38,664 nt of DNA from Archaeoglobi archaeon (lineage in GTDB: Archaea > Halobacteriota > Archaeoglobi > Archaeoglobales > Archaeoglobaceae). Where the stretch lies: contig JAPDIY010000077.1 of NCBI GenBank assembly GCA_029259335.1, positions 1-38,664 of the forward strand, read 5' to 3'. Positions 16,313-34,096 of this stretch are shown here, in pieces; the stretch's first letter is position 1; the number at the start of each line of letters is the position of its first letter. The notes under the pieces were generated by a model. It did no database searches, was not told where the DNA came from, and saw only the letters and a program-made list of their open reading frames with translations. The position numbers and the translations under genes are program-made.

Positions 16313-16347
16313 GTGCCGTTAAGTATCAATTGAGGTGATGAAAAATA

Positions 16348-16626: not shown

Positions 16627-16930
16627 CAGTGAGGAGTTTAAGAAGGCGGTAGAGAGCGAAAAGCTCGTGGTGGTGGACTTCTACGCAGACTGGTGCATGC
16701 CCTGCCGCTATATATCTCCGGTGCTTGAGAAACTTGAGAAGGAGTATGATGGGCGGGCAGAGTTCTACAAATTGAATGTGGACGAGAATCAGGATGTGGC
16801 TGTTGAGTTTGGAATTGCGAGCATCCCAACGGTGTTGTTCTTCAGAAACGGGAAGGTAGTTGGCGGTTTCATAGGAGCGATGCCCGAAAGTGCCGTGAGA
16901 TCAGAGATAGAGAAGGCATTGCAAGCATGA
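16613..16930 (+). CDS. trx: Thioredoxin with WCMPC active site
   Basis: This 105-residue thioredoxin starts at GTG 16613, placed 5 nt after a strong AGGAGGTGAT ribosome-binding site. An in-frame GTG at 16604 lies inside that site and is rejected. The active site is Trp27-Cys28-Met29-Pro30-Cys31 (VDFYADWCMPCR) rather than the common WCGPC, and the cis-proline is in ASIPTVLFF. A Met in the dipeptide should alter redox potential or partner choice. The stop overlaps the ATG of the next gene by 4 bp (ATGA), and the broken glutaredoxin-like gene precedes it. The whole string looks like a disulfide/iron-sulfur unit. Confidence 0.93.
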   Translation: MKHLNSEEFKKAVESEKLVVVDFYADWCMPCRYISPVLEKLEKEYDGRAEFYKLNVDENQDVAVEFGIASIPTVLFFRNGKVVGGFIGAMPESAVRSEIEKALQA

Positions 16931-17313
16931 AATCCATAAAAGAGATGGTTTCAACGCTCAACTGCGGAAACATGCTTGAGTGCGTATTCGGATTAGCTCC
17001 GGTAGACGTCAGAGTCTATGAAGCATTGCTGCAGGGAATGGAGAGAATTGAGGAGATCAGCAAGGCGGTTGGAAAGGGTGAGAGTGCGGTTTACAAATCA
17101 CTGCAAAGACTGTTGATTGCAGGTATGGCTTACAGGATAAAAATGCCGCTTGAGGGTGGCGGCTACTACTTCATTTACAAACCCGCTCCGAAGGAGAGGG
17201 TTGCTGAAGAGGTGGACAGGGTTATACAGGAGCTTTGTTTGAGAGTAAAGAAAACACTGGAGGAGTTTCTGAATGATAGCAGTCCTTGGATGCCAGGGAT
17301 GCGGAACGTGTAG
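16927..17313 (+). CDS. Winged-helix transcriptional regulator (TrmB-like)
   Basis: This 128-residue protein contains a winged helix over residues about 22-80: [40 protein letters not shown] and [11 protein letters not shown], followed by a [16 protein letters not shown] wing and a C-terminal helix. This arrangement is that of TrmB/MarR-like archaeal regulators. Two cysteines near the N-terminus ([11 protein letters not shown]) could sense redox state, which is an inference from the operon. It is coupled to thioredoxin by ATGA, and its 3' end overlaps the ferredoxin gene by 41 bp in another frame. It probably regulates its own operon. Confidence 0.8.
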
Positions 17314-17443
17314 CAGAGTCTGTCCTACAGATGCGATAATCAGGGAAGGGGGGAAGGTTGTAAGGATTGACCTTGAAAAATGCAAGGGGTGTTACGACTG
17401 CGTGAAAGCATGCCCTTACGGGGCGCTTATAGTTATGGACTGA
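17273..17443 (+). CDS. 2[4Fe-4S] ferredoxin (56 residues)
   Basis: This short gene carries two complete cluster motifs: Cys7, Cys10, Cys13, Cys17-Pro ([13 protein letters not shown]) and Cys37, Cys40, Cys43, Cys47-Pro ([13 protein letters not shown]). It is therefore a classical clostridial-type ferredoxin carrying low-potential electrons. The ATG at 17273 overlaps the end of the regulator gene by 41 bp, giving tight coupling. The larger ORF starting at 17380 in another frame overlaps it, and that extra N-terminus is spurious. The likely partner is thioredoxin or an unseen reductase. The eight cysteines make the call secure. Confidence 0.93.
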
Positions 17444-17460
17444 AGGATATTCTGGATATT

Positions 17461-18003
17461 GTGGGTAAAGACAGTGATACCGAGAAGGCTTTGGAAATCA
17501 TTTTAAGACACTGTAAGAAAGGGGTTATTCCAGCAGAGGAGCTTGACGAAGAGGTTGCACTAATCCTTGACTACTACAGACTCGCTCTGCCAGTAAATTC
17601 TGTGTACGGATCGCTTTCATGGAAAATGCGTCTGTTTTCGGTAGCAGACATGGAGATTCCCTACATAATCAGATACTTTTTCGAGGAATTGCAGAGGGGA
17701 AGAGGGGAGTGGAGAAGGGCTGTGGTGAGGTATTTCAGTGATATTGGCGAGTCCAGGCCAGAAGAGTTCGTTGAGATTTTTGAAGAAATGATAAAGAGGA
17801 GCAGGAATTTTATCGTATGTGGGGAGGACATCATGGACATTTCAATGAAGTATGGCAGGGATGGCGGTGTTGTCATAGCCGAAATGAAGGGTGCCGGATT
17901 GATAAGCCCAACAGTTGGTTGTGGTGGGTTTAGTAAGGCAAGAGCTCCGCTTTACGAGATAAACAGGTTTCTCGCTTTGCTCGTTGAGCGTGAAAGTCTT
18001 TAA
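17461..18003 (+). CDS. Hypothetical helical protein in the thioredoxin-ferredoxin operon
   Basis: The family is not recognised. From a GTG at 17461 the protein is 180 residues, mostly helical. An N-terminal segment ([19 protein letters not shown]) is followed by an [19 protein letters not shown] helix. The C-terminus, with [20 protein letters not shown] and [18 protein letters not shown], resembles a winged helix. The frame is open up to 17380, but that part lies over the ferredoxin coding sequence and has no start signal. GAAGGA at 17442-17447 may be the ribosome-binding site. It is the last gene before serB, which has its own ribosome-binding site 24 nt later. Confidence 0.65.
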
Positions 18004-18027
18004 ATTTGGAGAGGTGTTACTTCTTTT

Positions 18028-19185
18028 GTGAAGTTGATTGCAATTTCAGCCTACGGTGAGGACAAGCCGGGAATCGTTCATGAGATATCGAAGGCTTTGG
18101 CTGACTGCAATGCCAACATAGTGGATATTGAGCAGTCGGTTCTGCAGGGAATGTTCGTAATGTTCATCGTTGCAGAGGTTGAGGATGAGGAATGTGTGAA
18201 GGTTAGAGTGGAGGAAGCTGCGAGTAGGAAGCGGGTTCACGTCAGCCTGACACCTTTCGTTAGAAAAGCTGAGGGGGAAAAGAACCTACAGGTTGTAACG
18301 GTTCTCGGAAAGGATAGGGTTGGAATTGTGAAGGATGTAACGCGAGTTTTTCTCGATTTTGGGATAAATATTGAGAGAACAAATCTTACGGCAAGAGAAG
18401 AACTGATATCAATAGAGTTCCTTGTTGATATCGGAGATAGAGATGAGAATGCGATAAAGAGGAGACTGAGGGAGGAGGCGGAGAGATTGGGTTTGGATAT
18501 AGTTATGCAACCCTACTCGACCTTCAGAAGGGAAAAAAGGCTGATAGTATTCGATATGGATTCAACTCTTGTTGATGCCGAGATAATAAATGAGCTTGCG
18601 AAAGAGGCGGGGGTTGACAGGGAGGTTGCTCAGCTTACTGATAGGGCAATGAGGGGCGAGATAAGCTTCAAGGAGGCTCTTGAGGAGAGAGTAAGGCTGC
18701 TGAAAGGGCTTCCCGTTGAAGTTCTTGAGAAAATCTACGCGAGGATTAAGCTTACTGAGGGGGCTAAGGAGCTTGTTAGGAGTTTGAAAGACTCGGGATA
18801 TAAGGTAGCAGTTGTGAGCGGGGGATTCAGCTACTTCACCGAAAGGCTCAAAAAAGAACTCGACCTCGATTATGCTTTTGGTAACGAACTTGAGATCGAG
18901 AATGGGAGGCTTACGGGAAGAATCAAAGGCAGAATAATAGATGCTGAAGAGAAGGCGAGAATTGTGGAGGAAATAGCGAGAAAGGAAGGAATAAATCCTG
19001 AAAACGTTGTTGCCGTCGGAGATGGTGCAAATGACAGGCTTATGATTGAAAAGGCAGGACTGGGTATAGCTTTCAACGCAAAGGAAATTCTCAAGGATGT
19101 TGCGGACGGTAGCATATCAAAGGAGAACTTCGTTGGACTGGCAAGCGTGCTTAAACTGCCTGCTGAATTTGTTAAGAGAATATGA
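18028..19185 (+). CDS. serB: Phosphoserine phosphatase with two N-terminal ACT domains
   Basis: SerB dephosphorylates O-phosphoserine, the last step of serine synthesis. The 385-residue protein has ACT domain 1 (about 1-75; AYGEDKPGIVHEISKALAD), ACT domain 2 (about 86-160; VLGKDRVGIVKDVTRVFLD) and a HAD phosphatase domain (about 170-385). Catalytic residues are Asp176 and Asp178 (FDMDST), the SGG motif at 264-266 and the acidic GDGANDRLM at 331-339. Tandem ACT domains suggest serine binding and feedback control. It starts with GTG after GGAGAGGTG at 18008-18016. serA in the same window also ends in an ACT domain. Confidence 0.95.
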   Translation: MKLIAISAYGEDKPGIVHEISKALADCNANIVDIEQSVLQGMFVMFIVAEVEDEECVKVRVEEAASRKRVHVSLTPFVRKAEGEKNLQVVTVLGKDRVGIVKDVTRVFLDFGINIERTNLTAREELISIEFLVDIGDRDENAIKRRLREEAERLGLDIVMQPYSTFRREKRLIVFDMDSTLVDAEIINELAKEAGVDREVAQLTDRAMRGEISFKEALEERVRLLKGLPVEVLEKIYARIKLTEGAKELVRSLKDSGYKVAVVSGGFSYFTERLKKELDLDYAFGNELEIENGRLTGRIKGRIIDAEEKARIVEEIARKEGINPENVVAVGDGANDRLMIEKAGLGIAFNAKEILKDVADGSISKENFVGLASVLKLPAEFVKRI

Positions 19186-19986
19186 TAGACATCCTTGTTA
19201 TCTACATCCTTTCTTTAGGAATTAAGCTGGTCGCCTATTACCTGTCGGGGCTTTACGGCAATTTTTGCAGATGCGATGCACTCTGTTGTTGACATAACAA
19301 TGATTCTGCTTCTTTTAATGTCGGAGAGGGTTGCGAGAAAATCACCCTGGGTGTGGGCTTTATCACCTTTTTATCTTTTGAGCTTGCAAAGGAGGGGGTG
19401 AGTAAGGTTCTCAACCCAGCATCCCTCTACCAGAACATCGGCGTTGCAGTATCATCCGAAATCCTCGTTCTAAGCTTGCTTTTTCTTGCAGCCTTTCTTT
19501 CAGCAAGGAGAGCAGGCATACTGAACAGAACGCTTTTGATCGAGAGCATCAACGACGCTCTGTCAACCTTCGCTGCAATCTTGGGTATAGGTCTTGTTTG
19601 GATCGGTTATCCAGTTTTTGATGGTGTTGCCACCTTGATAATAGCCTCTATAATCTTCTACAACTCCTTCAAGCTTGTAAGAGATAATGCAAAGATTCTT
19701 CTTGGATTATCGCCTTCCGACGAGTTCTACGAGAGTGTGGAAAAGGTGTGTAGTGATATTGACGGGGTTGAGGGTGTGCACGATATGGTCGGAATTTATA
19801 CCGGAGAGAATTCGATACATCTCGACCTGCACGTTACGGTTGATGAGGGATGACTGTAAAGGATGCCGACAAACTGTCTGAGGAGAGATAGCAGAAGCAA
19901 TAAGGTCAAAGCATCCAGAGGTAAAGCATATCTCAGTCCATTTCTGCCCGCACGGTGGGGAGAGGAGAAAGATATACGAAGCTTAG
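19183..19986 (+). pseudogene. Cation diffusion facilitator (CDF) transporter, multiply frameshifted
   Basis: Starting just at the end of serB (ATG at 19183), successive frames give MIDILVIYILSLGIKLVAYY, then after a shift near 19257 IFADAMHSVVDITMILLLLM. The metal-binding H/D pair of a CDF first zinc site (ADAMHSVVD) is visible there. A third frame from about 19353 gives FITFLSFELAKEGVSKVLNP, LIESINDALSTFAAILGIG and the cytosolic GVEGVHDMVGIYTGENSIHL. Two further shifts near 19850 and 19890 lead to SVHFCPHGG and a stop at 19984-19986. The HPxGH region usually found after the second helix is missing, implying a deletion. With at least four lesions the gene is dead. Its end overlaps the aminotransferase gene end. 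Confidence 0.8.
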
Positions 19987-21125
19987 GTGCTCAAAAATCT
20001 CTCAAGCCTCTTGAGGAATTCGGATATCCTCTCCCTCGAAGTTGCGTAGCTCAGCCTTACCCAGCTTTTGTATGCAACTCCAAAAGCCGAGCCGGGGGTT
20101 AATGCGACATGCTCTTTCTTCAGAAACTCCTCACAGAACTCTGAACTGTCCCTGTTTACATTCATGAATATGTAAAACGCTCCCTTGGGAGGGGCGTATT
20201 CAATGCCCAAGTCTTCCAGTTTCTCCATTATCATGTCTCTCCTCACTCTGAACTCCTCCACAACTTCCCTGATGAAGCTCTGGTCACCCTTAAGCGCTGC
20301 AACGCCGGCATACTGCACGAAGGATGTCGGATGACTTACAGAGTGACTCTGCATGCGATTCATTAGCTTTACAATCCATTCCGGAGCGGCAGCATAGCCC
20401 AATCTCCAGCCGGTCATTGAGTATGTTTTTGAGAAGCCGTTGATTGTTATCGTCCTTTCAAGCATCCCGTCCATCGCTGCAAGGCTGTAATGCTTACCCT
20501 CGAAGATTATTTTCTCGTAAATCTCGTCTGACATGACAAGCAAATCCTTCTCGACGGCAATATCCCTTACCTTCTTCAAAAAATCCTTCGGATAAACAAC
20601 TCCGAGAGGGTTGCTTGGGGTGTTTACGACAATCATCTTCGTGTTTGAGGTTATGTAATCTTCTATGGGAGCATCTTCAAAACCCTCCTCGTGAGGCACC
20701 CAGACTGGCTTTGCTCCGGCCATCAGAATACAAGCTTCGTAGCTAACCCAAGAGGGGTCGAGCAGAATAACTTCATCACCCTCCTGCAGCAGACACATCA
20801 TTGCCTCGTATATGGCATACTTCGCTCCCGGAGTCACAATGACGTCCTCCGCATTGACATCTATACCGTTCTCCTCCCTCAGCTTCTCGATAATAGCCTC
20901 AATGAGTTCCGGGATTCCCTTCGTTGGGGTGTAAAAGACTTTTCCCTCCTTCATCGCCCTGTATGCTGCCTCTATAATAAATTCGGGAGTCGTGAAGTCT
21001 GGCTCCCCAACACTCATATCCACTACATCTTTGCCCTCTCTTGCCAGCTCTTTTGCCATCGTTGAAACTCTTAGCGTTGCGGAAGGCTGAACTACTTCAA
21101 TCCTGTTAGCTCCCCTCTGAATCAT
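19983..21125 (-). CDS. Class I/II pyridoxal-phosphate aminotransferase (aspartate-type)
   Basis: This 380-residue fold-type I aminotransferase has the PLP lysine at 233 in INGFSKTYSMTGWRLGY, the VNTPSNPLG segment (Asn172), Asp200 and Tyr203 (MSDEIYEKI), and the substrate-carboxylate Arg in the C-terminal third. The pattern fits the archaeal AspC-like group, which handles aspartate, alanine or aromatic acids. It could supply phosphoserine aminotransferase activity near serA/serB, but that is speculation. It overlaps the 3' end of ribH by 20 bp and is probably translated from the same message (GGAG just before the ATG). Confidence 0.9.
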   Translation of the reverse strand: MIQRGANRIEVVQPSATLRVSTMAKELAREGKDVVDMSVGEPDFTTPEFIIEAAYRAMKEGKVFYTPTKGIPELIEAIIEKLREENGIDVNAEDVIVTPGAKYAIYEAMMCLLQEGDEVILLDPSWVSYEACILMAGAKPVWVPHEEGFEDAPIEDYITSNTKMIVVNTPSNPLGVVYPKDFLKKVRDIAVEKDLLVMSDEIYEKIIFEGKHYSLAAMDGMLERTITINGFSKTYSMTGWRLGYAAAPEWIVKLMNRMQSHSVSHPTSFVQYAGVAALKGDQSFIREVVEEFRVRRDMIMEKLEDLGIEYAPPKGAFYIFMNVNRDSSEFCEEFLKKEHVALTPGSAFGVAYKSWVRLSYATSRERISEFLKRLERFLST

Positions 21126-21537
21126 ACTCCTTCAGCCTCTTTACCAGCTTAACCGCTGCCTCAACTGCCCTCTTGGCGTAGTCAACCCTCTCAGTTGCTG
21201 CAATCCTGCCCATTCCCGGACCGCTTATGCCGAGCGTGACGGGTTTACCATAATCAAGGCTCAGGTCAAGTATTTTCCTGGCAGCATGCTGGGCAACAAT
21301 CTCATCATGCTCCGTCTCGCCCTCAATAACACAACCTATGGCAACAACAGCATCAACATTGCCTTTTTCAAGCATCTTCTTTACGCCAATCGGAATATCA
21401 AAGGTTCCGGGAACTCTGATAACCTCGCTAACCTCAGCCCCCAAAAACTCAGCATGCTCTTTACCGAGAATCTCCATCATGTAGGTGATGTCTCTGTTGA
21501 ACTCGGCCACGACCATCCCGAGCTTGACTTTATTCAT
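21106..21537 (-). CDS. ribH: 6,7-dimethyl-8-ribityllumazine synthase
   Basis: RibH condenses 3,4-dihydroxy-2-butanone 4-phosphate with the ribitylamino-uracil to make lumazine, the riboflavin precursor. From the ATG at 21537 the protein is 143 residues. Characteristic segments are VVAEFNRDIT, the substrate-binding VPGTFDIPIGV and GCVIEGETEHDEIVAQHAARK with catalytic His77. A GTG nine bases upstream is less likely because GGTGGTT precedes the ATG as ribosome-binding site. A TATA-like ATTAAAT near 21570 serves as promoter. It is divergent from the LysR gene, with about 90 bp between the start codons. Confidence 0.94.
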   Translation of the reverse strand: MNKVKLGMVVAEFNRDITYMMEILGKEHAEFLGAEVSEVIRVPGTFDIPIGVKKMLEKGNVDAVVAIGCVIEGETEHDEIVAQHAARKILDLSLDYGKPVTLGISGPGMGRIAATERVDYAKRAVEAAVKLVKRLKEYDSEGS

Positions 21538-21594
21538 AACAACCACCCTTCAAAAATCTCCGTTAGTATTTAATAGTTTGCCAAATCGGGTATG

Positions 21595-21626
21595 CAAAAA
21601 TTTAAAAACTTATTGCTAAATTTTTG
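21595..21626 (+). promoter_or_regulatory. Perfect 10-bp inverted repeat over the LysR-gene promoter
   Basis: CAAAAATTTA (21595-21604) and TAAATTTTTG (21617-21626) are exact inverted repeats with a 12-bp spacer, 22 bp between half-site centres. They cover the TATA region (TTTAAAAACTTA) and end 4 bp before the ATG at 21631. The position suits autorepression by the LysR-type protein, since family members bind dyads beside their own genes. Confidence 0.55.
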
Positions 21627-21630
21627 AATC

Positions 21631-22569
21631 ATGGTCAGGCTCGATTTCATGAAAACCTTCATGGAGGTTGTTGAGTCGGGAAGTTTGAAGAAGGCTGCCA
21701 AGATCATGGGAATGTCCGTTAGCTCTGTAAGCTTTCAGATTAACTCCGTAGAGTCGTTCTATGGCGCCAAGCTGCTTGAAAGAGGGACTAATGGTGTAAA
21801 GCTGACCGATGAAGGGAAGATTGCAATTAGGAACATGAAATCCATTCTAAGCAGTGTTGAGGAAACAAAGAAGCTTATTCTAAACCTAAAAGGAGATAAG
21901 ATAACAATCGCATCCGGAATGGTTGGATTGAACATAGTCCATGCAATTCAAACTCTACTAAAATCCAGCTATCCGCAGCTTGAAGTTAATGTCGCTCTCA
22001 TAGGAGCGCACGAATGTGTCAGAGGTATTTTAGGTGGTGAATACGATTTTGCCATAGCAGGAGACATTCTCGACGAATACTTGGAGTTCGACAGGCTTAA
22101 CTGCGACATTCTCGGTGAAGACCACCTCATTTTGATCACCCCTCCCGACCATGAGCTTGCTGAGAAACCTGTTGTCACACTGGAAGACATTACGAAATAT
22201 CCGATAGTTATGCTCGATGACAACTACGGGATTACAACAAGCACAAAAAAAGCTCTTATAGCGAGCGGTTTGAAGCTCAGTGAGCTGAATGTTGCTTATA
22301 CGGTCAGCGATTTCTACTCAAAGATAAATGCAGTTAGCAGCGGTATTGGAATAGCCATAACTTCCCTCATCGCAGCTTGCAAAGCGTGTGAGGTTGGTTT
22401 GGTCAAGATAAGGAAAATTGAAGGCTTTAAATCAGAGAGAAATATTTACTTCGTCTCCTCCAAGCTTTCTCTCGAGAGCAAAAAGATGAGAGAGTACTAC
22501 GAATTCATTCTGGCCAAGGGAAGGCAGCTTTTCGAGGATTTTGCAACGCAGTGCAGATGTTTTGAATAA
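21631..22569 (+). CDS. LysR-type transcriptional regulator
   Basis: This 312-residue LysR-family protein has an N-terminal winged HTH: DFMKTFMEVVESGSLKKAAK, IMGMSVSSVSFQINSVESFY and LLERGTNGVKLTDEGK. The effector domain (about 90-300) has the periplasmic-binding-protein-like fold, with EDHLILITPPDHELAEKP and SSGIGIAITSLIAA. The co-inducer is unknown. The next three genes encode a DUF169 protein, a TauE/SafE-type exporter and a membrane protein, so a sulfur compound or organic anion is a plausible ligand, by context only. The gene probably starts leaderless and is probably autoregulated through the inverted repeat at its promoter. Confidence 0.92.
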   Translation: MVRLDFMKTFMEVVESGSLKKAAKIMGMSVSSVSFQINSVESFYGAKLLERGTNGVKLTDEGKIAIRNMKSILSSVEETKKLILNLKGDKITIASGMVGLNIVHAIQTLLKSSYPQLEVNVALIGAHECVRGILGGEYDFAIAGDILDEYLEFDRLNCDILGEDHLILITPPDHELAEKPVVTLEDITKYPIVMLDDNYGITTSTKKALIASGLKLSELNVAYTVSDFYSKINAVSSGIGIAITSLIAACKACEVGLVKIRKIEGFKSERNIYFVSSKLSLESKKMREYYEFILAKGRQLFEDFATQCRCFE

Positions 22570-22573
22570 TTCT

Positions 22574-22747
22574 AAAATTTCGAATATTTTGAAAAAGATT
22601 TCACTATCTTTTCTTTATTGATTCAAATACTTTCTTCCAGTTAACAAATTTTTAAGAAAATTTAGTCTTTTAATTAAAAGCCGATTTTCGGTAAGCAAAA
22701 ACTTCGTAATTTCAAAAAATTTCGAAACATATTTAGAAAATTTCGAA
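22574..22747 (+). promoter_or_regulatory. Three AAAATTTCGAA boxes between the LysR gene and the DUF169 operon
   Basis: The 11-mer AAAATTTCGAA occurs exactly at 22574-22584, 22716-22726 and 22737-22747. The last two are spaced 21 bp, two helical turns, and the third directly abuts the TATA-like AATTTTAAAAA (22748-22758) about 25 nt before the DUF169 ATG. The TTTCGAA core is nearly palindromic. The rest of this 210-bp AT-rich gap has no gene. These are good candidates for binding sites of the upstream LysR protein. Confidence 0.5.
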
Positions 22748-22779
22748 AATTTTAAAAAGTGGCTGTGTGAGCGAGTTTT

Positions 22780-23649
22780 ATGATGCAAGAAGTGGTGCTG
22801 GATACGGAGACTCTTCTGGATGACAGGAAGTTTGCAGAAACAATGCTGCTGAAGAGGGACAAGCAGGGATTGAGCAAGGCAGATATGGTCTTCATTCTAA
22901 GAAATCTGCTGAAACTGAAGTACTACCCGGTGGCAGTGAAATTCTTCTACGATGAGAATGAGGTGGAGAAGTTCAAGGCGGAGCATGAATACTTGGTAGC
23001 ATGCAATCCGTTCACATTCTGCCATTTCTCCGCAGCTTCAAGGCAGCGCGGCGATGTCTTGCTTGGGGACAAAAAAACTTTAGGATGCAGCAACGCTCGA
23101 TATCTGTTTGGCTGGAAGGACTTGGATGAGCAGGAGATTAAGAGCCACGTTAAGTATGTGAGGGACAGAGAACAGGCGGAGAAATTTGTGAAGACAAAGC
23201 CAAGACTTCCTGAAGGGCTGGTAGCCTTTGCCACAGCACCTCTACACAAGGCGAAGTTCGAGCCGGACTTGATTCAGATAATCTGCGATGTTCTGCAGAG
23301 CTACCACATCTACAACGACTGGGCTTCGGCAATGGATGTGCATCCTGTCCAGCCCAACATGATGATGAATTCAGCGGTTTGCGGGGGGGCTGTTTGGACA
23401 TACAACAACAGGAAGATTAACATTGTGCCGATGTGCAGCAGCAGCTACACCTCCGGCAAGACCGAGCAGGGGGAGATCAACGTTTACGTCCCGTGGGAGC
23501 AGTTCGAGCCCTACATAGTTAGATTGCTTGAGAGAACAGCCAAATACGGTGGGGCAAGCTTCCCGAGAACTGGTGAGACGTATCCGGGCTTCAATGTATG
23601 CAAGCTATGCAACTTCCTGCTCTTCAGAAAGCCGAAGGAGGATGAGTAA
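22780..23649 (+). CDS. DUF169 family protein
   Basis: This 289-residue protein resembles the DUF169 family (PF02596, from memory), which is of unknown function and common in anaerobic archaea and bacteria. Features are KLKYYPVAVKFFYDENEV near the N-terminus, a cysteine-containing FTFCHFSAASRQRG segment, GCSNARYLFGW, later AVCGGAVWTYNNRKINIVPM, and a C-terminal CKLCNF motif. Several conserved cysteines suggest metal or thiol chemistry. It is soluble, with no signal peptide. It begins the operon DUF169-TSUP exporter-small membrane protein downstream of a LysR regulator. Function is not known; context suggests handling of a compound that the exporter removes. Confidence 0.85.
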   Translation: MMQEVVLDTETLLDDRKFAETMLLKRDKQGLSKADMVFILRNLLKLKYYPVAVKFFYDENEVEKFKAEHEYLVACNPFTFCHFSAASRQRGDVLLGDKKTLGCSNARYLFGWKDLDEQEIKSHVKYVRDREQAEKFVKTKPRLPEGLVAFATAPLHKAKFEPDLIQIICDVLQSYHIYNDWASAMDVHPVQPNMMMNSAVCGGAVWTYNNRKINIVPMCSSSYTSGKTEQGEINVYVPWEQFEPYIVRLLERTAKYGGASFPRTGETYPGFNVCKLCNFLLFRKPKEDE

Positions 23650-23663
23650 GGGGGTGATGCTGT

Positions 23664-24683
23664 TTGATAGACGTAACGTGGATGGTAATAGGGGAAGAGA
23701 CGATTAAAATTAACGCGATTGTTTATCTGCTCTGGTGTATTTGGGTCGGGTGGATTTTCTCAACAGTTGGAGCATTTGGAGGCATTATGGCCGGTGTTGG
23801 ACATATTTCAATTCTTGGCATCGGTAACTGGGCGAGCAAGCTGAAAGGTAAGAGCATCAGCATTGGAATGTACAACGATGCTGGCAAGTACCTCACAGAC
23901 CACATAAGATTCTCGAACACCGCAATAACCTGGCTCAACTCCCTCTCAAGCACAATAAACTGGTATACACAGAAGAGGCTCGTCTGGCCTGCTGCTATTG
24001 CAATGGGTCTCGGCATGGTCATTGGTGCGCAGGTCGCAGTTTGGGGAACTGGCGGGAAGCTTGGAGTTGCCCTCTACAAAGGTCTCTTCGGCCTCTGTAC
24101 ATGGGCCGTTTCTATATACATGTTCTACCAGATAACGCCAAGGGCAAAGGCCTCAAAGTCAAAGGGCAGAGAGGCTGCAAAGAGGTTTCAGGAGAGAGTT
24201 GAAGAGCTCAGAAAGAGTGGAAGGCTGCAGGAGCTTGAAGGTATTACTAACGTAAAATACTCGCTCAGCCAGGTCGAGTTTGATTTCTTCGGCGAGCACT
24301 TCGTGGCTAAAAACTACCTGCCGTTCTTCTACGGACTCCTCATCGGATTCATAGCCGCACTGATCGGTGTTGGCGGAGGGTTCCTGATCGTTCCGTTCTT
24401 CACCGCTCTTGGCTGGCCAATGTACATCACCCCAGCAGTCTCAGCTCTGACAGTCTTCCTCAACCAGTGCTCAGCACTTGCAGGATGGTTTGCAAGGGGT
24501 ATTGAGTTCGTGTGGCCAATAGTGATCGGTTGGGCTGGTATTCTGATAGGCAGTTACATCGGACCAAGGACGCAGAAGTACCTGCCGATGGATGTGCTGT
24601 TCGCAATGTTCGGTGCTCTGGCATTCTACGTCGGAACGAGATACATCGCAGCCGGTTTCTTCGGAATACACCTTCCGCCATAA
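23664..24683 (+). CDS. TauE/SafE (TSUP) family membrane transporter
   Basis: This 339-residue polytopic membrane protein of the sulfite/sulfonate/acetate exporter superfamily has two glycine-rich half-repeats typical of TSUP: STVGAFGGIMAGVGHISILG near the N-terminus and IGVGGGFLIVPFFTALGWPM in the second half. They are separated by a charged cytosolic loop (about 165-220, rich in Lys/Arg/Glu). The start is TTG 23664, chosen because GGGGGTGATG ends 5 nt upstream; an ATG at 23682 would cut the first segment. The substrate is unknown. For a sulfur-metabolising archaeon sulfite or a sulfonate is plausible. Confidence 0.87.
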   Translation: MIDVTWMVIGEETIKINAIVYLLWCIWVGWIFSTVGAFGGIMAGVGHISILGIGNWASKLKGKSISIGMYNDAGKYLTDHIRFSNTAITWLNSLSSTINWYTQKRLVWPAAIAMGLGMVIGAQVAVWGTGGKLGVALYKGLFGLCTWAVSIYMFYQITPRAKASKSKGREAAKRFQERVEELRKSGRLQELEGITNVKYSLSQVEFDFFGEHFVAKNYLPFFYGLLIGFIAALIGVGGGFLIVPFFTALGWPMYITPAVSALTVFLNQCSALAGWFARGIEFVWPIVIGWAGILIGSYIGPRTQKYLPMDVLFAMFGALAFYVGTRYIAAGFFGIHLPP

Positions 24684-24685
24684 AC

Positions 24686-25129
24686 ATGAACCCACTTTAC
24701 TTTTTTATTGTCGCAACCGTAGCGGTTGTGATTTTGACAGAACGAGTAGAATCTTTAGTACTCAGTAGGTTCTTTAGAGGCTTTTTAGAGGAAATTAAGA
24801 GAACGGAAGCCGAGCTGAATGAGTATCATGCTTTATCAATTCTTGCAATAGCCATGAACGACAGAGAGGCCTATGAGGGTTTTCAGAGAATGGCGAATGA
24901 GAAATACTGGCCTCTGTTTTTCAGAAAGATGATGTTCACCACATCCCTCTTCTTTTTGCTTTTGACTCCTTACATGCTCCTCACAACCTTTTTCATCGAC
25001 CCTCAGGCTTTTTCTTACACCATGTTCATCGCCATTGCCTATTTCACCGCAAGGCTTGGATTGAGTTTCGTCATTGATAGCCTAAATGCGTGGAAAGGGG
25101 CTAAGGAGGCACGAAAGAATTTCGATTGA
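24686..25129 (+). CDS. Small membrane protein of the DUF169/TSUP operon
   Basis: This unrecognised 147-residue protein has three likely membrane segments: residues about 3-18 (PLYFFIVATVAVVILT), about 81-103 (TTSLFFLLLTPYMLLTTFFI) and about 110-130. A charged amphipathic middle (EEIKRTEAELNEYHALSIL, NDREAYEGFQRMANEKYWP) lies between the first two. The layout recalls DUF106/EMC3-like proteins but is too uncertain to name. It starts two bases after the TSUP stop, so it is co-translated and may be an accessory subunit of that transporter. The frame is open further upstream, but that part overlies TSUP coding sequence. Confidence 0.7.
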   Translation: MNPLYFFIVATVAVVILTERVESLVLSRFFRGFLEEIKRTEAELNEYHALSILAIAMNDREAYEGFQRMANEKYWPLFFRKMMFTTSLFFLLLTPYMLLTTFFIDPQAFSYTMFIAIAYFTARLGLSFVIDSLNAWKGAKEARKNFD

Positions 25130-25160
25130 TGGGGTTGAAGTGAGTAAACACATCGAAAAG

Positions 25161-25170
25161 CTTTTTATTC
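25161..25170 (+). promoter_or_regulatory. TATA box for the paralogue cluster
   Basis: AAAGCTTTTTATTC with core CTTTTTATTC lies 23-32 nt before the ATG at 25193, and there is no ribosome-binding site, so the first gene is probably leaderless. No comparable promoter is evident before the next four genes, whose gaps are 4-16 bp, so one transcript may cover 25193-29543. Confidence 0.45.
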
Positions 25171-25192
25171 GGTAATGATAATTTAGTGTTGA

Positions 25193-25630
25193 ATGGCTAC
25201 TGTAACCCCTGCCGAGTTTGGTAATGTAATATTTCAGTTAATTCTGGCAAATCTTGAGTTACTGAGTAATACTTTCAGGCTGCTTATAGATAATTCAATT
25301 TCCGCTGTAGAGGTATGGAATGTTACATATCACGCTGCAAGTTTTGGGTATTGGGTTGCCAACTCCTTTGTGGGGGAGGGTGGTGCTTTAGATGTTATGA
25401 GAGAAAACATTTCAGCTATGGAAAATTTTGCCAATATGGTTAGTTATTTGGGTGGGAATACGGAGGTGATATTCGGTAACGAGAGTGGCGAGGAGGGAGT
25501 TTCGGCTGTAATGAAGAATGTTGTGGCATTGATAGATGAGAACTTTACAGTCAAGTTTTGGAGTACATTAAAGCTTGGCATAATTGCTGTGGTAAAATTG
25601 ATGGGACAAATTTCTGCAGCTTTCAGGTGA
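25193..25630 (+). CDS. Paralogue 1 of an undescribed helical sequon-bearing family
   Basis: This 145-residue protein matches no family I recognise. It has a hydrophobic N-terminal helix (FGNVIFQLILANLELLSNTF), a Trp/Tyr-rich second helix (AASFGYWVANSFVG), the shared core and a C-terminal hydrophobic helix (LKLGIIAVVKLMGQIS). The core reads NISAMENF, 14 residues, then FGNESGEEG, aligning without gaps with the four following gene products. N-x-S/T sequons (NVT, NIS, NES, NFT) are frequent, suggesting an extracytoplasmic, glycosylated protein, yet no cleavable signal peptide is seen. It is the first gene of a five-gene unit. Confidence 0.8.
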   Translation: MATVTPAEFGNVIFQLILANLELLSNTFRLLIDNSISAVEVWNVTYHAASFGYWVANSFVGEGGALDVMRENISAMENFANMVSYLGGNTEVIFGNESGEEGVSAVMKNVVALIDENFTVKFWSTLKLGIIAVVKLMGQISAAFR

Positions 25631-25634
25631 GAAG

Positions 25635-26063
25635 ATGCCAATAGCAACGATAAGCGAGTTTGTCGGAGATGGAATTCTAACGCCGCTATCTAACATATTC
25701 ATTCTGGTGTATGGTCTAACTGAACCAATTGTCTCACAATTAACACAAGATCATCCTAACTGGATATATTCTCATCTTGCAGTGCTCTTATGGATTACAA
25801 AGTTTCTAAGCGCAGTTGTTGGACTTACGGCGACCAACGGAACCTTAACTGCAGCATTCAACGATACTCTTCATACTCTTTCCACAAACTCCAACGATTT
25901 CTTTGGAAATTTCACTGGTAAAAGTGGTATGAGCTACATAGCGAAGTATTCTTATCTTGAACTGGTAAACAACAAAACTCTTGCCAATGATTTGGCTGTA
26001 AAATTTGCCAGAGCCCTAAATAGTGTGGTGACTTTTATAATGAAAGCATTCGAATTTTTGTGA
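25635..26063 (+). CDS. Paralogue 2 of the sequon-bearing family
   Basis: This 142-residue protein starts 4 bp after paralogue 1 (AGAAGATG context). The N-terminal helix is LSNIFILVYGLTEPIVSQL and the second hydrophobic helix LAVLLWITKFLSAVVGL. The core reads NGTLTAAF, 14 residues, then FGNFTGKSG, with Phe and FG at exactly the same spacing as in paralogue 1. Sequons NGT, NDT, NFT and NKT are present. The C-terminal helix is ALNSVVTFIMKAFEFL. Although the core aligns, overall identity to paralogue 1 is low by eye, implying old duplication or strong diversification. Function unknown. Confidence 0.8.
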   Translation: MPIATISEFVGDGILTPLSNIFILVYGLTEPIVSQLTQDHPNWIYSHLAVLLWITKFLSAVVGLTATNGTLTAAFNDTLHTLSTNSNDFFGNFTGKSGMSYIAKYSYLELVNNKTLANDLAVKFARALNSVVTFIMKAFEFL

Positions 26064-26068
26064 TATTT

Positions 26069-26548
26069 ATGACGACGGCTGCTGAGCTTGGAGATGTAAT
26101 GCTTAAGGCGTTGACTGGGATTTTAAAATTCTTAAAAGCTTTATCTATTCAGCTTCAGATGACAGGAAATAATGAAACAGCCGTTAATGCCTCTCGCGGA
26201 GCTTATCAGAGTTTTTGGGAGATATGGTACTATGCTGGGGCCATGATACACTGGGCCACAAATATGCTTGTCGGTAGTTGGGGCTATGTGGATTTAATAA
26301 ACAAAAATGCGACACTCCAAGCTGAATTTGCACAGGTTGTGGGAATTGCAGCTAAGAATGCAACTCGGATGTTGGGCGATGTAGAGGGCACAAATTCAAC
26401 AACATTCCTCCTGAGGGTGATGGTGGAAAGATTATATAATCAAAGTAACCACGTTTTCGTTGCCAACCTTTGGACTGCTACTTCGGAACTGATAAGGCTA
26501 GTGGCGGACGCTCTTAAGTATTTCCCAACATATTTCCCTTCAACTTGA
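26069..26548 (+). CDS. Paralogue 3 of the sequon-bearing family
   Basis: From the ATG at 26069 the protein is 159 residues and begins MTTAAELGDVMLKALTGIL, which lines up with MATVTPAEFGNVIFQLIL of paralogue 1. This supports that start over the GTG at 26060, which overlaps the previous stop. Core: NATLQAEF, 14 residues, then LGDVEGTNS. An extra sequon-rich insertion (GNNETAVNAS) sits before an aromatic helix (SFWEIWYYAGAMIHWATNML). Further sequons include NAT, NST and NQS. The C-terminus is Leu/Ala-rich with ALKYFPTYFPS. NATLQAEF is close to NQTLRAEF in the large secreted protein. Confidence 0.8.
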   Translation: MTTAAELGDVMLKALTGILKFLKALSIQLQMTGNNETAVNASRGAYQSFWEIWYYAGAMIHWATNMLVGSWGYVDLINKNATLQAEFAQVVGIAAKNATRMLGDVEGTNSTTFLLRVMVERLYNQSNHVFVANLWTATSELIRLVADALKYFPTYFPST

Positions 26549-26557
26549 GGTGATGTC

Positions 26558-27031
26558 ATGCCTCTCAATTTAGACTTAGCAACGCTTTACATAATAGATG
26601 CTTTTCGAGCGAACTTTATACTACTGGCAGAACTCTTCAGAGCGATAGCGATAAACTCGACAATAGCAGATTATGTTACCCAAGACATCTACTACATCTT
26701 TGGCTCTGTTTATTGGCTCTCCTATGCTCTAAGTGATATGGCGGAGGTTGTAAACAGTGAATTGGCAGCGGGTAATGCAACTTGGATAAACTGGGTGGTT
26801 GGATACTGGCAGAAAACTGCTATCAATTCAAAATGGGTTTTTGGAGACTGGGAAGGTAATTGGGGAATAGCTTACGTATGGAAACGTGGTTGGGAGTGCA
26901 TTCAGCCGGGGCAATACTGCTTCAACGTAGGATATGGCAACGAAACAGTTCGCGATGCTTTGGAGATGATAAAATGGCTGTTCAATGCAACAAGCCAGAT
27001 TGGAGGGAGAATGTCAAATGTTTATTCGTAA
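26558..27031 (+). CDS. Paralogue 4 of the sequon-bearing family
   Basis: This 157-residue protein starts 9 bp after paralogue 3 with GAGGTGATGTC as ribosome-binding context. The core is more divergent: NATWINWV (aromatic Trp one position earlier, Val at the Phe position), 14 residues, then FGDWEGNWG. The whole protein is unusually rich in Trp and Tyr (SVYWLSYAL, WVVGYWQKT, AYVWKRGWE). A pair of cysteines (CIQPGQYC), absent in the other small paralogues, may form a disulfide, again consistent with an outside location. Sequons NST, NAT and NET are present. The stop is 16 bp before the large secreted gene. Confidence 0.78.
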   Translation: MPLNLDLATLYIIDAFRANFILLAELFRAIAINSTIADYVTQDIYYIFGSVYWLSYALSDMAEVVNSELAAGNATWINWVVGYWQKTAINSKWVFGDWEGNWGIAYVWKRGWECIQPGQYCFNVGYGNETVRDALEMIKWLFNATSQIGGRMSNVYS

Positions 27032-27047
27032 TAAGAGGTGTTTAAAA

Positions 27048-29543
27048 ATGAAGAGAGCATTACTTCTTGTGCTTATTCTTCTTGTCTTGGTAAATGTGGC
27101 CGAAGCTAAAACGTTTACTGTGAACTTTATGCACGTCACGACGGAGTTCCCCTCTCCAAAAGCCTACTGGGGTCATAAATACGATAGTGCTCCATCTAAT
27201 CCCAGCAGTGAGTCTACTCCATCAAGCGACTACACGGAATTCTCCCAAAACGCTAGCTACCAGGAAATTGCCTCTAGGGATGGAATCTACATTTACTATG
27301 AGGATGCTGAAACATACTACTTCGTGTTCAGGATTCCCACCTCCGCAACAAGCATCAGCGTGAACTGGTACGGATGTGCTAATGACGGTAACGATTACGT
27401 TTACCTTTACGCTTTCAACTGGACCAGCAACAGTTGGGACTATTTGGACGATTATTACGGCGATTCATGGGGTTGGTTGAATAAAAGCCTTGGCAGCCAG
27501 CATATTTCCCAGAACGGATATGTCCACGTTGCTTTTGTGGCTTATCGCAACAATGGGTGGGACAGTTACGCAGAATTCCCCACAGACTACGTCGAGCTCG
27601 TCGTTGATGTTCCAGATTATGATATCATACCGGCCTGTGTGGATTACGATGATTCAACTGCCCCACGTCCCTGGGATGGATTTTTAGAGTATGATACAAT
27701 AAGCGTGCAGGCAAGAGCAACAAACACCACAGGCGAAACAATTCCTTACTACTACTCATTTTATCTAAAAGCAGAATGGGATAGCAACAGTGGAATATTC
27801 GGAAGCGGTGTTGCGGATTCTACTGGCTGGGCTACTGTTAGCGGGAGGCCGATTGATGGTGGGGTGACGGACGAGTGGCGTGTAACACTCAAGGTTGGTG
27901 TTGGTGACGCCATCGTTAATGGGGTAGCGTATGAAGCCAGTCCAACATGCGGGGAAAAGGCATTTGCCAGCAATGTAGCCATAACACCCAAAAGCTACAA
28001 CCTGACCCTCGTCGGGCGCTACTACGATGCAAACGGCATAGACTGGGCCTACATAAACTGGAAAACGAGACCTTCCAATGTAGCCCCAGTGAACATAGGG
28101 GGATACAATCTGCCGGTTTCTGTGAAGTTCAACCAGTACTCTTGGGAACTCTACGTGTGGAAGATAGGGGCGAATAACGTCCCAGGAAATCTTAACAACG
28201 ATCCAGATGGCGATGTGGAAGGTGTCAATGGTAACGTGAATGAAGTGACCAGCGAACACGACATGTATCCTGCCTACTATGCCCCGGATGATGTGCCTTT
28301 CGCAGATCCCGACGGTAATGGGGGATGTAGAAATGCAAGAACACCGATTACAGAGGGAGATAGGTATCCCGCTGGTTGCTGTATGAGGGAGAACTGGGAT
28401 AACTACGTTCCGGGAGAGAGTCCACCGATAGAAACTGGCGACTGCGGGCAGTGGATGAGTGGCTACAGAATAGGTCCTTTAATGGAGTTCAATTCTCCAG
28501 CACACAATCTTGGAGAACCGGGAAAGGCTTCAATATTTCTTTGCTCAGAGTTCAGACTCCAAGATGAAGATTGGGGCTCGCTTTCTGGAATGCTGAATTC
28601 AACACCATACAGCGGACACGAAGGCGATGGAACGAATAAGGGTAGGTTGAGGTGTACAGGATGCGGGTTGTGGAGTCTAATAGAACAGACAACATCGCCA
28701 GGTGCTACAGAGTATATATTTGCAAATGATATTTGGGTCTGCTCCATATTTTCACTTGCAAACTATCTCGTTGTCCACAGACATCCCTACGGTGGACTCG
28801 GCACGATAAACTTCGTAGGCCTAATCCCCGACAGCGACCATGTCGTCGGAATCATGATGGGGCATCGCTTCGGCATTCACCCGTTTGTAGCAGTTGTGAC
28901 ATCAATGCCCCCACCCGGCACATCTCCAACACCCCCGCTCAGCCCCGCTTCGAACTGGGATATAAACTTCCTGCAGGTCTGGCTTTACTACCTGCTGAGG
29001 AACCTTGCCTATGGTATAGTTGTTACGGCAGACGAGTGGATGCACATGAGTGACCGCTTTCCAGAGAGTGGAGAAGATAATGTAGAGCTTCTGGCTAAAG
29101 CCTTTGTTCTTATGGCAGAAGATTTGCTTCCAACACTCGAAGAGACTCTCTGGATTCTGCAGGCCAGTGGCAACAATACGCTGAATCCGTTCTGGGTTTC
29201 AATGGTATCTCAGTTCAACGACACGAAAAGGATAGCAACACTCATTACAGTTAATCAAACGTTAAGGGCAGAATTCATGAACACTGTCGGAACCCTTTTC
29301 TACCGACTTCCAGACATTCTCGGCCCACCAAACGCAAGCACCGGATTAAACTATTTCCTAAATGGAACTGTGAATGGGCTTACATATGAGGAAAAGCGCA
29401 GTATAGTCAGTACAATTTACAGCCTTCTGGATGAAACACTATCGCTGATAATTACGACTCTGCATCGCCTTCCTTACTTGGAATATGTCAACGATCCATA
29501 CAGCCCAGGATGGAACTTTAACTGGATAGAGAACTCAGGGTGA
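27048..29543 (+). CDS. Large secreted protein carrying the paralogue domain at its C-terminus (831 residues)
   Basis: The start at ATG 27048 is chosen because it gives a clear signal peptide: MKR, then LLLVLILLVLVNV, then AEA before KTFT. The frame extends upstream over paralogue 4 and is spurious there. Residues about 25-220 look like an aromatic-rich beta-sandwich (YEDAETYYFVFRIP, WNSWDY-like turns). Residues about 220-350 form a second beta region. Residues about 390-560 are rich in Asp, Gly and Cys, with calcium-loop-like DPDGDVEG and DPDGNGG. A Pro-rich linker (MPPPGTSPTPPLSP) precedes a helical domain from about 636 whose core reads NQTLRAEF, 14 residues, then LGPPNASTG, matching paralogues 1-4. 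There is no obvious C-terminal anchor. Function unknown; a cell-surface or secreted glycoprotein is likely. Confidence 0.85.
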   Translation: MKRALLLVLILLVLVNVAEAKTFTVNFMHVTTEFPSPKAYWGHKYDSAPSNPSSESTPSSDYTEFSQNASYQEIASRDGIYIYYEDAETYYFVFRIPTSATSISVNWYGCANDGNDYVYLYAFNWTSNSWDYLDDYYGDSWGWLNKSLGSQHISQNGYVHVAFVAYRNNGWDSYAEFPTDYVELVVDVPDYDIIPACVDYDDSTAPRPWDGFLEYDTISVQARATNTTGETIPYYYSFYLKAEWDSNSGIFGSGVADSTGWATVSGRPIDGGVTDEWRVTLKVGVGDAIVNGVAYEASPTCGEKAFASNVAITPKSYNLTLVGRYYDANGIDWAYINWKTRPSNVAPVNIGGYNLPVSVKFNQYSWELYVWKIGANNVPGNLNNDPDGDVEGVNGNVNEVTSEHDMYPAYYAPDDVPFADPDGNGGCRNARTPITEGDRYPAGCCMRENWDNYVPGESPPIETGDCGQWMSGYRIGPLMEFNSPAHNLGEPGKASIFLCSEFRLQDEDWGSLSGMLNSTPYSGHEGDGTNKGRLRCTGCGLWSLIEQTTSPGATEYIFANDIWVCSIFSLANYLVVHRHPYGGLGTINFVGLIPDSDHVVGIMMGHRFGIHPFVAVVTSMPPPGTSPTPPLSPASNWDINFLQVWLYYLLRNLAYGIVVTADEWMHMSDRFPESGEDNVELLAKAFVLMAEDLLPTLEETLWILQASGNNTLNPFWVSMVSQFNDTKRIATLITVNQTLRAEFMNTVGTLFYRLPDILGPPNASTGLNYFLNGTVNGLTYEEKRSIVSTIYSLLDETLSLIITTLHRLPYLEYVNDPYSPGWNFNWIENSG

Positions 29544-29557: not shown

Positions 29558-30859
29558 TTATCTTCTTCTGTAGTATCTCAATACTACAAAAAAGGCCAAC
29601 ACTAAAAGAGTTGCTATCAGTATATATAGGGGGTTAAGTGGTGTTACATCCTTTGAACTCTCTACAGTAAAACTCTCTACAGTAATATAGTAAGTTTTCT
29701 TCCACAAAATATTTCCGCCTTCATCAACTCTCAAGAGCCAGATACATTCGCCATTGCATGCATTGCTCATCAGAAGATACCCTTCCTGCAATTTTAGAAT
29801 TTTGGCAATTCCGAGAGCATAAGTCTCAAAGCGAAAATCATCAATATATTTGTGATATGTATACTCCTCATTCTTAATTTTCGCAAACCATACGAACCTT
29901 TCAGGATGTTTATTTAGAAGATTCCCTCCAGTTCCAGCCACCACCAACTCATCGGAGGCTTCAACAATTGACCAGCCTGAAGTAATCTGTCCAACTCTTA
30001 TTTCTGTCTGCCAGATCAGATTTCCATTTTTGTCAAGCTCCATAACAAAAGCATGAGATCTGACCTGCTGTGGAGTAACATTTGTGTGAAGATTGACATC
30101 CCAAGAAGTTCCAATTAAAAAGTAGTTGCCTTGAATCTCCTTTATTTCGAAAGAGTAACTTTCATTTTTGAAAGTAAATATTTTCCTCCAAACTATCTCT
30201 CCATTTTCGTCTAACTTGTAAACTACTATGTCTGAGTAGTTGTATCCTATGGAGGCGTTGAAATCGCCAGAAAGAGTAACCATAATGTATCCGTCCGAAA
30301 CTTTCCTTATTTTCTTAGGGCTATCATAATCTTTGTAGTCAATAGTTTTTCTCCAGATCTCATTACCGTTTTCGTCAAGTTTTATAAGCCATATGTCTTC
30401 ATTTATGCATTTCCTCTCGCCCTTCTCATCGCATGGTGCTATCGTTAATGCCGCCACCACATTTTTTCCTTCCATAGTTATGGTTGTAGCACTGTCTCCC
30501 CAACCCTCAAACCCGTAAACTTTCTCCCAAAGAATACTACCGTTTTTACTCACTTTTGCAATCCAGCCATCCTTATTTTCACAAAGAATTACTCCACCCA
30601 GAATGTAGCTATCACCAGCATCTAATATATTCCAAATATGTGTCGTGCAATCTTTCTTCTTATCAACCCACTCCCAGATCTTATTCCCTTGCGAATCTAC
30701 CTTGAGAATATAAGCGGAACTAATCCACATATGATTACCTCTTGCTCCCCCTATTATGAAGCTACCATCCTCTTGCAAGATGTCAAAACCAAAGATCCAA
30801 GCATTAACCGGGAATATCACGAAGACAACGGCTAAAAGTCTTATCATTGTCCTTTTCAT
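29558..30859 (-). CDS. Membrane-anchored extracellular beta-propeller-like protein
   Basis: This 433-residue protein has a signal peptide (MKRTMIRLLAVVFVIFPVNA), a repeat domain and a C-terminal anchor (PLYILIATLLVLAFFVVL, then RYYRRR). Repeats of about 60 residues end in K(L/V)DxxGNxIWxK: VDSQGNKIWEW, VSKNGSILWEK, LDENGNEIWRK, LDENGEIVWRK, LDKNGNLIWQT and VDEGGNILWKK. Six such strands suggest a PQQ-like or related beta-propeller facing outward. It is convergent with the large secreted gene, 14 bp apart, and looks more AT-rich than the chromosomal housekeeping genes. Its own TATA-like CTTAAAATA lies 25-35 nt before the ATG. A surface partner role for the paralogue cluster is inferred from position only. 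Confidence 0.85.
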   Translation of the reverse strand: MKRTMIRLLAVVFVIFPVNAWIFGFDILQEDGSFIIGGARGNHMWISSAYILKVDSQGNKIWEWVDKKKDCTTHIWNILDAGDSYILGGVILCENKDGWIAKVSKNGSILWEKVYGFEGWGDSATTITMEGKNVVAALTIAPCDEKGERKCINEDIWLIKLDENGNEIWRKTIDYKDYDSPKKIRKVSDGYIMVTLSGDFNASIGYNYSDIVVYKLDENGEIVWRKIFTFKNESYSFEIKEIQGNYFLIGTSWDVNLHTNVTPQQVRSHAFVMELDKNGNLIWQTEIRVGQITSGWSIVEASDELVVAGTGGNLLNKHPERFVWFAKIKNEEYTYHKYIDDFRFETYALGIAKILKLQEGYLLMSNACNGECIWLLRVDEGGNILWKKTYYITVESFTVESSKDVTPLNPLYILIATLLVLAFFVVLRYYRRR

Positions 30860-32593: not shown

Positions 32594-34096
32594 ATGCCAG
32601 AGGAAGTAGTAGAAAAAATGGTTAGAGAAGCTATGGCTGCCCAGTGGGCGGATGTGAACGTGATTAAGGAGAAGAGAGGGCAGGAGTTTGTTATTGACGA
32701 TGTAAAGCCTTATGTGGATGCTGTAAACCAGATGAAGGCTGTTGAAAATCAAAGTAAAGCTGTGGTACGACTCCACGTTGATTCGGTAAACGCGCATTAC
32801 GAGATTTTGAGAAGTCTCACAAAGACTGTAAGACCTGAAGATGACCCGTTTGTGGAGCACTACCAGACACCAGCAATAATGGAGATTCTGTATGAGGAGG
32901 ACGAGAGCTTCAGGAAGAGTGTGGATAAGTTTATAGAGGGAATTGAGAAAGCTGAGGCTCTGATTGGCCTTGAGGTTGTCAGGAGGTATGGTGGTTTTTA
33001 CGGGCCAACATGCGTTGTTGACTTCGCCCTAATACCGGGAAGCACGAGCAATATCGTAAACAGAATACTCAAAACAGTGGACATTCCAAAAGAGCACGCT
33101 CAGGCAATTCTTGCTTCAAAATCATGGGGTATGAACACATCCTATGGTTTCGGCGAGGTATTTGCCAATGAGGTGGAGAAAGGAGCTACGCTCAGTGATG
33201 CGATAAAGAAAGAAATTGAGATGATCAAACTCGTTTACGACCAGCCGACCGAGGCACAGGCTAAGCTGATGGATGAGCATGGCCATCAGAGCTTTGATGT
33301 GAGGAAATACATGTCAGAATACAAGAACAGGATGAAGGCGGCAGTTAAGGAGGCAATGGATGATGGAGTCCACTACGGAAACATTGTAACTGTCCCAGCA
33401 TACTGTGTTGGAGATGTCGCTCACCACATAGCTCAGTCAACTTTCAACATGTGCAAGGATGACGTTGTGATGGCAGTAATAGAGACAACAAGTAAGGTTA
33501 TGGATACAACACTGAATGCAAATCTGGACAAGTTCAAGAACGAGTATCAGCCCTTAACAGTAGCTACAGGAGCGGGAGCGGTTGCTGTTGAATACATCCT
33601 TGAGCTTGATGGCTTTAACGCTCCGATGATTGTTGACCTGCTTACGAAGAGGTTCCACAACTATGTCCAGCTCTACCCAACGAGGGGTGGAGCAGCAGAA
33701 CTGCATAACCACGATTTCATGGACATGATATACAGGGGATGGAAATACATTGACAAGGCGAGGAGAGACAGGAATGGTGCTGAAACAAAACTCGTTCCAA
33801 AGGTTGCCGGGTTTGAGGTAAATCTTGATCCAGTACATGAAAATGAGGTGCTGATGAATCCGCAGCGCTACGCATATCCCGGATGTGCGATCAGCGTCAG
33901 ATTCTCTGCTCTGATGAGGCTCGCAGATTATCCGTGTCTGCTGACAAGCGAGCCAGTAACGGCAACAATGATGACAAACATAATCGCATTGCACAAGGAG
34001 AATCCAGCCTCGCCGGCAAGGGTGTGTAAGGACTGCGCTACTGCTGCGCTTGTTGACTTCAGGCATGCATACTGCCAGTGGAGAGAGGCAGTTTAA
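32594..34096 (+). CDS. DUF2193 family protein (about 500 residues)
   Basis: This 500-residue soluble protein resembles DUF2193 (PF09959, from memory), a family of unknown function found in methanogens and Archaeoglobales. Visible features are the N-terminal EEVVEKMVREAMAAQWADVN, a central YGNIVTVPAYCVGDVAHHIA, LYPTRGGAAELHNHDFMDMI with several His/Asp/Glu, and a C-terminal cysteine region (PGCAISVRF, YPCLL, VCKDCATAA). The His/Cys content suggests a metal or cofactor site. It heads an apparent operon with the zinc-ribbon DUF2180 protein and AqpM. That conserved association suggests a common process involving a small neutral molecule, but the function is not known. Confidence 0.85.
   Translation: MPEEVVEKMVREAMAAQWADVNVIKEKRGQEFVIDDVKPYVDAVNQMKAVENQSKAVVRLHVDSVNAHYEILRSLTKTVRPEDDPFVEHYQTPAIMEILYEEDESFRKSVDKFIEGIEKAEALIGLEVVRRYGGFYGPTCVVDFALIPGSTSNIVNRILKTVDIPKEHAQAILASKSWGMNTSYGFGEVFANEVEKGATLSDAIKKEIEMIKLVYDQPTEAQAKLMDEHGHQSFDVRKYMSEYKNRMKAAVKEAMDDGVHYGNIVTVPAYCVGDVAHHIAQSTFNMCKDDVVMAVIETTSKVMDTTLNANLDKFKNEYQPLTVATGAGAVAVEYILELDGFNAPMIVDLLTKRFHNYVQLYPTRGGAAELHNHDFMDMIYRGWKYIDKARRDRNGAETKLVPKVAGFEVNLDPVHENEVLMNPQRYAYPGCAISVRFSALMRLADYPCLLTSEPVTATMMTNIIALHKENPASPARVCKDCATAALVDFRHAYCQWREAV

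Follow-up and report, generated by a model that had tools for sequence, protein, structure and literature searches.

Gene content of the locus

The window analyzed here is a stretch of 38,664 nucleotides from an Archaeoglobi archaeon. Five adjacent open reading frames, referred to as genes A to E, were found at the positions that an initial annotation had assigned to them. The features of the locus are as follows:

21631-24683: genes for a LysR regulator, a DUF169 protein and a TauE/SafE exporter, directly upstream; kept across the genus
24686-25129: protein F, a three-TM protein, just upstream of gene A
25155..25168, + strand: BRE/TATA-like promoter GAAAAGCTTTTTAT, read by eye, 24 nt upstream of the gene A ATG
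25193..25630, + strand: gene A, 145 aa; free-standing domain without signal peptide; sequons N43, N72, N96 and N117
25635..26063, + strand: gene B, 142 aa; free-standing domain without signal peptide
26069..26548, + strand: gene C, free-standing domain (open reading frame 26060-26548, 162 aa, opening at GTG 26060)
26558..27031, + strand: gene D, 157 aa; free-standing domain
27048..29543, + strand: gene E, 831-aa secreted protein with signal peptide
E residues ~90-312: MAM/galactose-binding-like and Ig-like beta domains, from AF2 and Foldseek
27978-28937 (E residues 311-630): middle part, with many invariant residues including Cys and His
29079..29486, + strand: shared helical domain within E, from profile comparisons
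29558..30859, - strand: beta-propeller-type protein with signal peptide, C-terminal hydrophobic anchor and a weak SBBP-repeat match

For gene C, the family alignment favoured ATG 26069 over GTG 26060 as the start, and B and C either overlap or lie 5 nt apart depending on this choice. As the other gaps are also short (4 nt between A and B, 9 nt between C and D, 16 nt between D and E), A-E look like one operon. The BRE/TATA-like stretch before gene A suggests, as read from the sequence, that the five genes have their own leaderless transcript. Gene D encodes two conserved Cys, both in the C-terminal part of the protein. Further downstream, window 32594-34096 encodes a DUF2193 protein (PF09959, E = 1.5e-277), an archaeal family of uncharacterised kind.

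A predicted helical domain shared by A-D and the C-terminus of E

The initial annotation had proposed that all five proteins share a gapless core with fixed spacing. Indeed, all five carry N-x-S/T-x4-[F/V], a spacer of exactly 14 residues and [F/L]G. The full pattern, slightly loosened, was matched by A-D, with a shuffle rate of <=0.001 for each, and had no hit among 327 background proteins (80,999 residues). It did not hold for E, whose second motif, LGPPNASTG, is without N/D and has no G at +3, even though both conserved glycines are kept. The homology of E therefore rests on profiles. With a profile built from the small family members, C-termini of E scored E = 2.5e-6 and 1.8e-5; a profile of E and its remote relatives reached small members with values from 1.8e-12 to about 1e-5, among them window C (7.3e-9) and window B (5e-7). 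Profile similarity among A, B, C, D and the E C-terminus was thus significant both ways. By hhalign, pairs within A-D scored 77-97% probability; A and D alone against the E C-terminus reached 0.9% and 3.2%, which is not significant. Judged from these sequence comparisons, A-D and the C-terminus of E share one homologous helical domain.

Family members were collected as orthologues from relatives and then subjected to profile-profile comparison, which linked A-D with each other and with two further groups, S and T. S is a single-copy gene that lacks a signal peptide and adjoins AdoMet synthetase. T proteins carry Sec signal peptides and are encoded elsewhere, as lone genes or in tandem arrays, including a position beside sucCD. 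S/T matched the profile of E and its remote relatives at 98% by hhalign. From the alignments, the domain is ~140 residues long and predicted to be helical. It comprises helix 1 and a helix 2 that often bears a W..Y motif; a sequon then opens helix 3, followed by a [FLI]G-x6-G turn and a long last helix, often terminated by [IL]PxxF. Beyond the sequon noticed initially, at a distance of 17 residues, comes a second conserved one, N-x-[ST]xx[F/L]G, which was carried by 8/8 C, 7/8 D, 6/6 S and 15/15 T sequences, with no conservation in A, B or E. AF2 gave all-helical models for A (pLDDT 52, low confidence) and for the E C-terminus (pLDDT below 50); given the low confidence of the A model, the bundle fold is to be read as a helix prediction only.

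In keeping with the view that no described family was recognisable, the domain had no match in Pfam or NCBIfam at curated cut-offs, in PHROG or among PDB sequences. Isolated Pfam matches of one to three members to RP-C_C (1.2e-4) and DUF7809 (9.6e-5), under the curated cut-off where shown, were put down to chance. Foldseek with the low-confidence A model against the PDB and viral models returned nothing below E = 0.9, and a literature search on presumed A. fulgidus locus tags for the cluster found nothing relevant.

The domain was found in 8/8 genomes of the genus, most Archaeoglobus genomes having several loci. Its carriers include one closed genome of 2,178,400 bp, one genome of genus g4, and three genomes of the family-mate genus g10, where one match is weak and interrupted by a stop. 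A phylum-level search added three further genomes (G189, G252 and G306), all from one other class, in which 3/58 genomes have the domain. Free-standing tandem copies occur there on G189 C35 and G306 C173; a protein on G306 C167 repeats the domain (three copies in 462 aa), and in proteins of 928, 1232 and 5700 aa it is joined to other extracellular beta domains. The 5700-aa open frame (G252:C59, L120 2-17104) is giant and extracellular-looking, with one clear and one weak C-terminal domain copy. MCR alpha genes were matched twice in G189 and five times in G306, and were also found in G026 and G072. The domain defined here, hitherto unannotated, thus extends to MCR-bearing archaea of another class. 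At G026:C6 (L043) 6986-10263, five tandem T members with signal peptides form one run, adjoining a gene with an isopropylmalate/citramalate synthase-like start. In another genome the family is almost lost, and an E gene remnant with many in-frame stops was seen at G076:C10:135676-136872.

Each of the seven groups, A-D, S, T and E, forms a single branch in the tree. A sequence from G026 falls inside each of A, B, C and D, so that the quartet predates the split of two genera. Group A has S, and none of B-D, as its closest neighbour, and the domain of E clusters with proteins from a different archaeal class. The lineages present in the window thus differ in age and are not five recent copies: of the initial proposal that a common fold diversified after duplication, the common domain is borne out by the profiles, but duplication followed by diversification is too simple an account of these five.

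Sequons and the question of export

All subfamilies are enriched in sequons. Observed versus expected numbers were 47/12 for A, 30/11 for B, 43/12 for C, 38/7 for D, 41/16 for S and 92/39 for T, i.e., 2.4-5-fold over composition and above all 2000 shuffles; cytosolic window proteins used as controls had 0-2 sequons. At the conserved sites, N and S/T are held while the middle residue is free and S and T replace each other (NVS/NAS/NIS/NLT at a site in A, NAT/NST/NTT in C, and NST/NSS/NTT/NTS/NAT in T). Sequon conservation thus goes beyond composition and has the form expected from selection for N-glycosylation. An oligosaccharyltransferase gene is present in the same genome. Together, the enrichment and this mode of conservation make it very probable that the domain is N-glycosylated outside the cell, attachment itself being deduced from sequence. 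Conserved sites are found beyond helix 1, in between the later helices and close to the C-terminal end, positions that argue for everything beyond helix 1 being outside the cell.

No cleavable signal peptide was detected in A-D and S, and in all but two an in-frame stop lies 0-19 codons upstream. A-D and S thus have no room for a signal peptide, a point against the surface reading favoured below. In T, a signal peptide directly precedes the homologous helix 1, and E also has one; our guess is that helix 1 serves as an uncleaved signal in A-D and S. Alternatively, A-D and S might be cytoplasmic or membrane-embedded helical proteins whose sequons are incidental helix caps. This would agree with the missing signal peptides, with an N-terminus that mostly lacks positive charge, and with a hydrophobic stretch in B near TM strength (KD 1.6-2.05). 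We nevertheless regard it as improbable: sequons are kept at many sites while the middle residue varies and S and T interchange, nothing similar was seen in the cytosolic controls, the later helices have sequon sites on both sides, and the T paralogues carry signal peptides. While the domain family is new, the kind of system is known; the puzzle is the presence of conserved sequons without a signal peptide, which raises the question of the route by which such proteins reach the oligosaccharyltransferase.

Linkage and neighbour genes

Across the genus, the cluster lies beside the same LysR, DUF169 and TauE genes and, where the contig reaches, also beside the genes for lumazine synthase and an aminotransferase. 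The initial annotation had named a surface assembly and virion-like proteins of an integrated element as options. Small tandem helical paralogues are organised like capsid clusters, and the family is restricted to its lineage. However, the chromosomal neighbours are constant, relatives were not found in IMG/VR viral contigs, phage records or PHROGs, and between the conserved flanks there are no recognisable integrase or replication genes. We therefore rejected a virion or mobile-element origin, which we consider scarcely credible. The surface option gained support from the sequons, from the signal peptides of T and E, and from the cluster L029, in which a relative of the propeller protein ends in a PGF-CTERM sorting signal.

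In G026 the cluster is rearranged, in the order A(+), E(-), propeller, propeller, D, C, B(-), with LysR, DUF169, TauE and F absent beside it. That A-E and the propeller gene still remain together there is the strongest indication that they function jointly. In G005, E has no propeller gene next to it. A different reading is that the exported glycoproteins act singly, as decoration, decoys or envelope spacers, with no complex with E. Many members do stand alone at unrelated loci (S by AdoMet synthetase, T by sucCD), but the clustering of A-D with E has been kept through the G026 rearrangement and the A-D domain is also present in E, so that we hold single action to be unlikely, though the foremost of the rivals.

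The genus-linked LysR, DUF169, TauE and F genes were considered as core partners and set aside. TauE and F are truncated, F N-terminally, at L040/L048 1195-1676 (G004), and both are frameshifted at L022 8151-9545 (the C31 copy), with A-D intact in either case. Given these broken copies and the absence at G026, the four are probably not core. Another proposal was that F inserts or exports A-D in the manner of an archaeal YidC/EMC3 insertase. F lies just upstream, and its plan of TM, helical loop, TM and TM recalls the three-TM EMC3/TMCO1/DUF106 insertases; the sequence relation is, however, not detectable (hhalign 1.6% against EMC3_TMCO1/DUF106, within the range of the shuffled control). Moreover, F is damaged in G004 and the C31 copy, and neither the region of the G026 cluster nor the surroundings of the lone S genes showed a counterpart. 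We therefore rejected F as an EMC3/DUF106-type insertase and regard such a role as very improbable.

Mosaic variation and a proposed surface assembly

Identity between relatives changes abruptly along the locus. Compared with L035, the window showed 92% identity in LysR, 97% in DUF169 and 96% in TauE, and 50, 50, 51 and 41% in A, B, C and D. Compared with L029, identity was 90% in A and 88% in B, then 57, 46 and 42% in C, D and E, and the DNA match ends at window 26109; dS in this pair was 0.23 for A, 0.37 for B and 0.63 for the flanking aminotransferase. Between L036 and L040, the first beta domain of E is 28% identical, the Ig domain 49%, the middle 86% and the C-terminus 99%, with neighbours of E at 97-98%. 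A-E thus evolve as a mosaic, and within E the N-terminal beta domain is swapped and the C-terminus kept. Positive selection as the source of this variability was rejected on the basis of dN/dS values of roughly 0.08-0.2 in close pairs, which indicate purifying selection; E in L036/L040, at 0.34, is raised by its swapped N-terminus. The low values point to exchange of alleles and domains, not adaptive point change. A second version of part of window 15181-26109, at 77-83% DNA identity, was seen in G000 on contigs C31, C78 and C73 (L022, L023 and L024). It spans the aminotransferase-lumazine synthase-LysR-DUF169-TauE-ABCD region together with 15181-17477, and reflects either a bin of mixed strains or a genuine duplication of large size.

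The AF2 model of E, built with four sequences, was confident only for residues ~90-312, which form two beta domains. Foldseek placed these close to modules of the MAM-Ig, GH2 sugar-binding and similar kinds; the beta-sandwich plus Ig arrangement resembles adhesion modules of RPTPmu (2c9a), meprin alpha and a GH2 sugar-binding domain, at an identity of about 9-14%, over the N-terminal third of E only and with low whole-model TM-scores. The middle of E has invariant GYR.GP, D..H and GHR.G.HPF motifs and conserved Cys, belongs to no known family, and may be a metal site or an enzyme. The E N-terminal beta domain also occurs within a secreted C45-type acyltransferase/hydrolase (G005:C1:244653-245009; L129 5540-7333).

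Taken together, we favour, at a probability of about 0.55, the reading that the operon encodes a cell-surface glycoprotein complex of a scaffold, E, with A-D, exchangeable between strains. What the data show directly is the homology, the conservation of sequons, the linkage of the genes and their mosaicism. A-D and the E C-terminus would be copies of an all-helical, probably N-glycosylated extracellular domain. E would be exported via Sec and serve as the scaffold: its N-terminal beta-sandwich and Ig domains may bind a ligand (a glycan, the S-layer or a partner cell), and its C-terminal helical domain would pack, on the cell surface, against its free-standing homologues A-D, the surface-anchored beta-propeller protein being the usual companion. 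The occurrence of the domain, repeated in or fused to large secreted proteins elsewhere, was counted in favour. Exchange of A-E alleles and E binding domains among strains would yield different surface types, possibly with a role in recognition or virus evasion. A more specific version is tentative: this may be a new archaeal domain for surface assembly, whose free-standing subunits would pass the membrane and receive N-glycans although they have no cleavable signal peptide, and would build exchangeable surface types together with a domain-swapped scaffold that differs between strains. A locus with such mosaicism and domain swapping would serve for surface typing in hyperthermophiles, with a bearing on virus adsorption and cell recognition.

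Known archaeal systems offer two comparisons. CanA, a protein of the cannulae of Pyrodictium, has 182 residues, a jellyroll beta fold and a 25-residue signal sequence (PMC12326000). A-D are likewise small paralogous proteins, presumably surface glycoproteins, comparable in size to CanA/CanB/CanC, but are predicted, at low confidence, to be all-helical and lack the signal. Archaeal S-layer glycoproteins, studied in Haloferax, vary and recombine between strains and have been discussed as serotype-like surface types with a possible effect on virus sensitivity (PMC5867893). Although no S-layer Pfam domain was found here and the small subunits are predicted to be all-helical, several without signal peptide, A-E resemble the Haloferax surface glycoproteins in being sequon-rich, variable among close relatives and recombining, with a PGF-CTERM companion.
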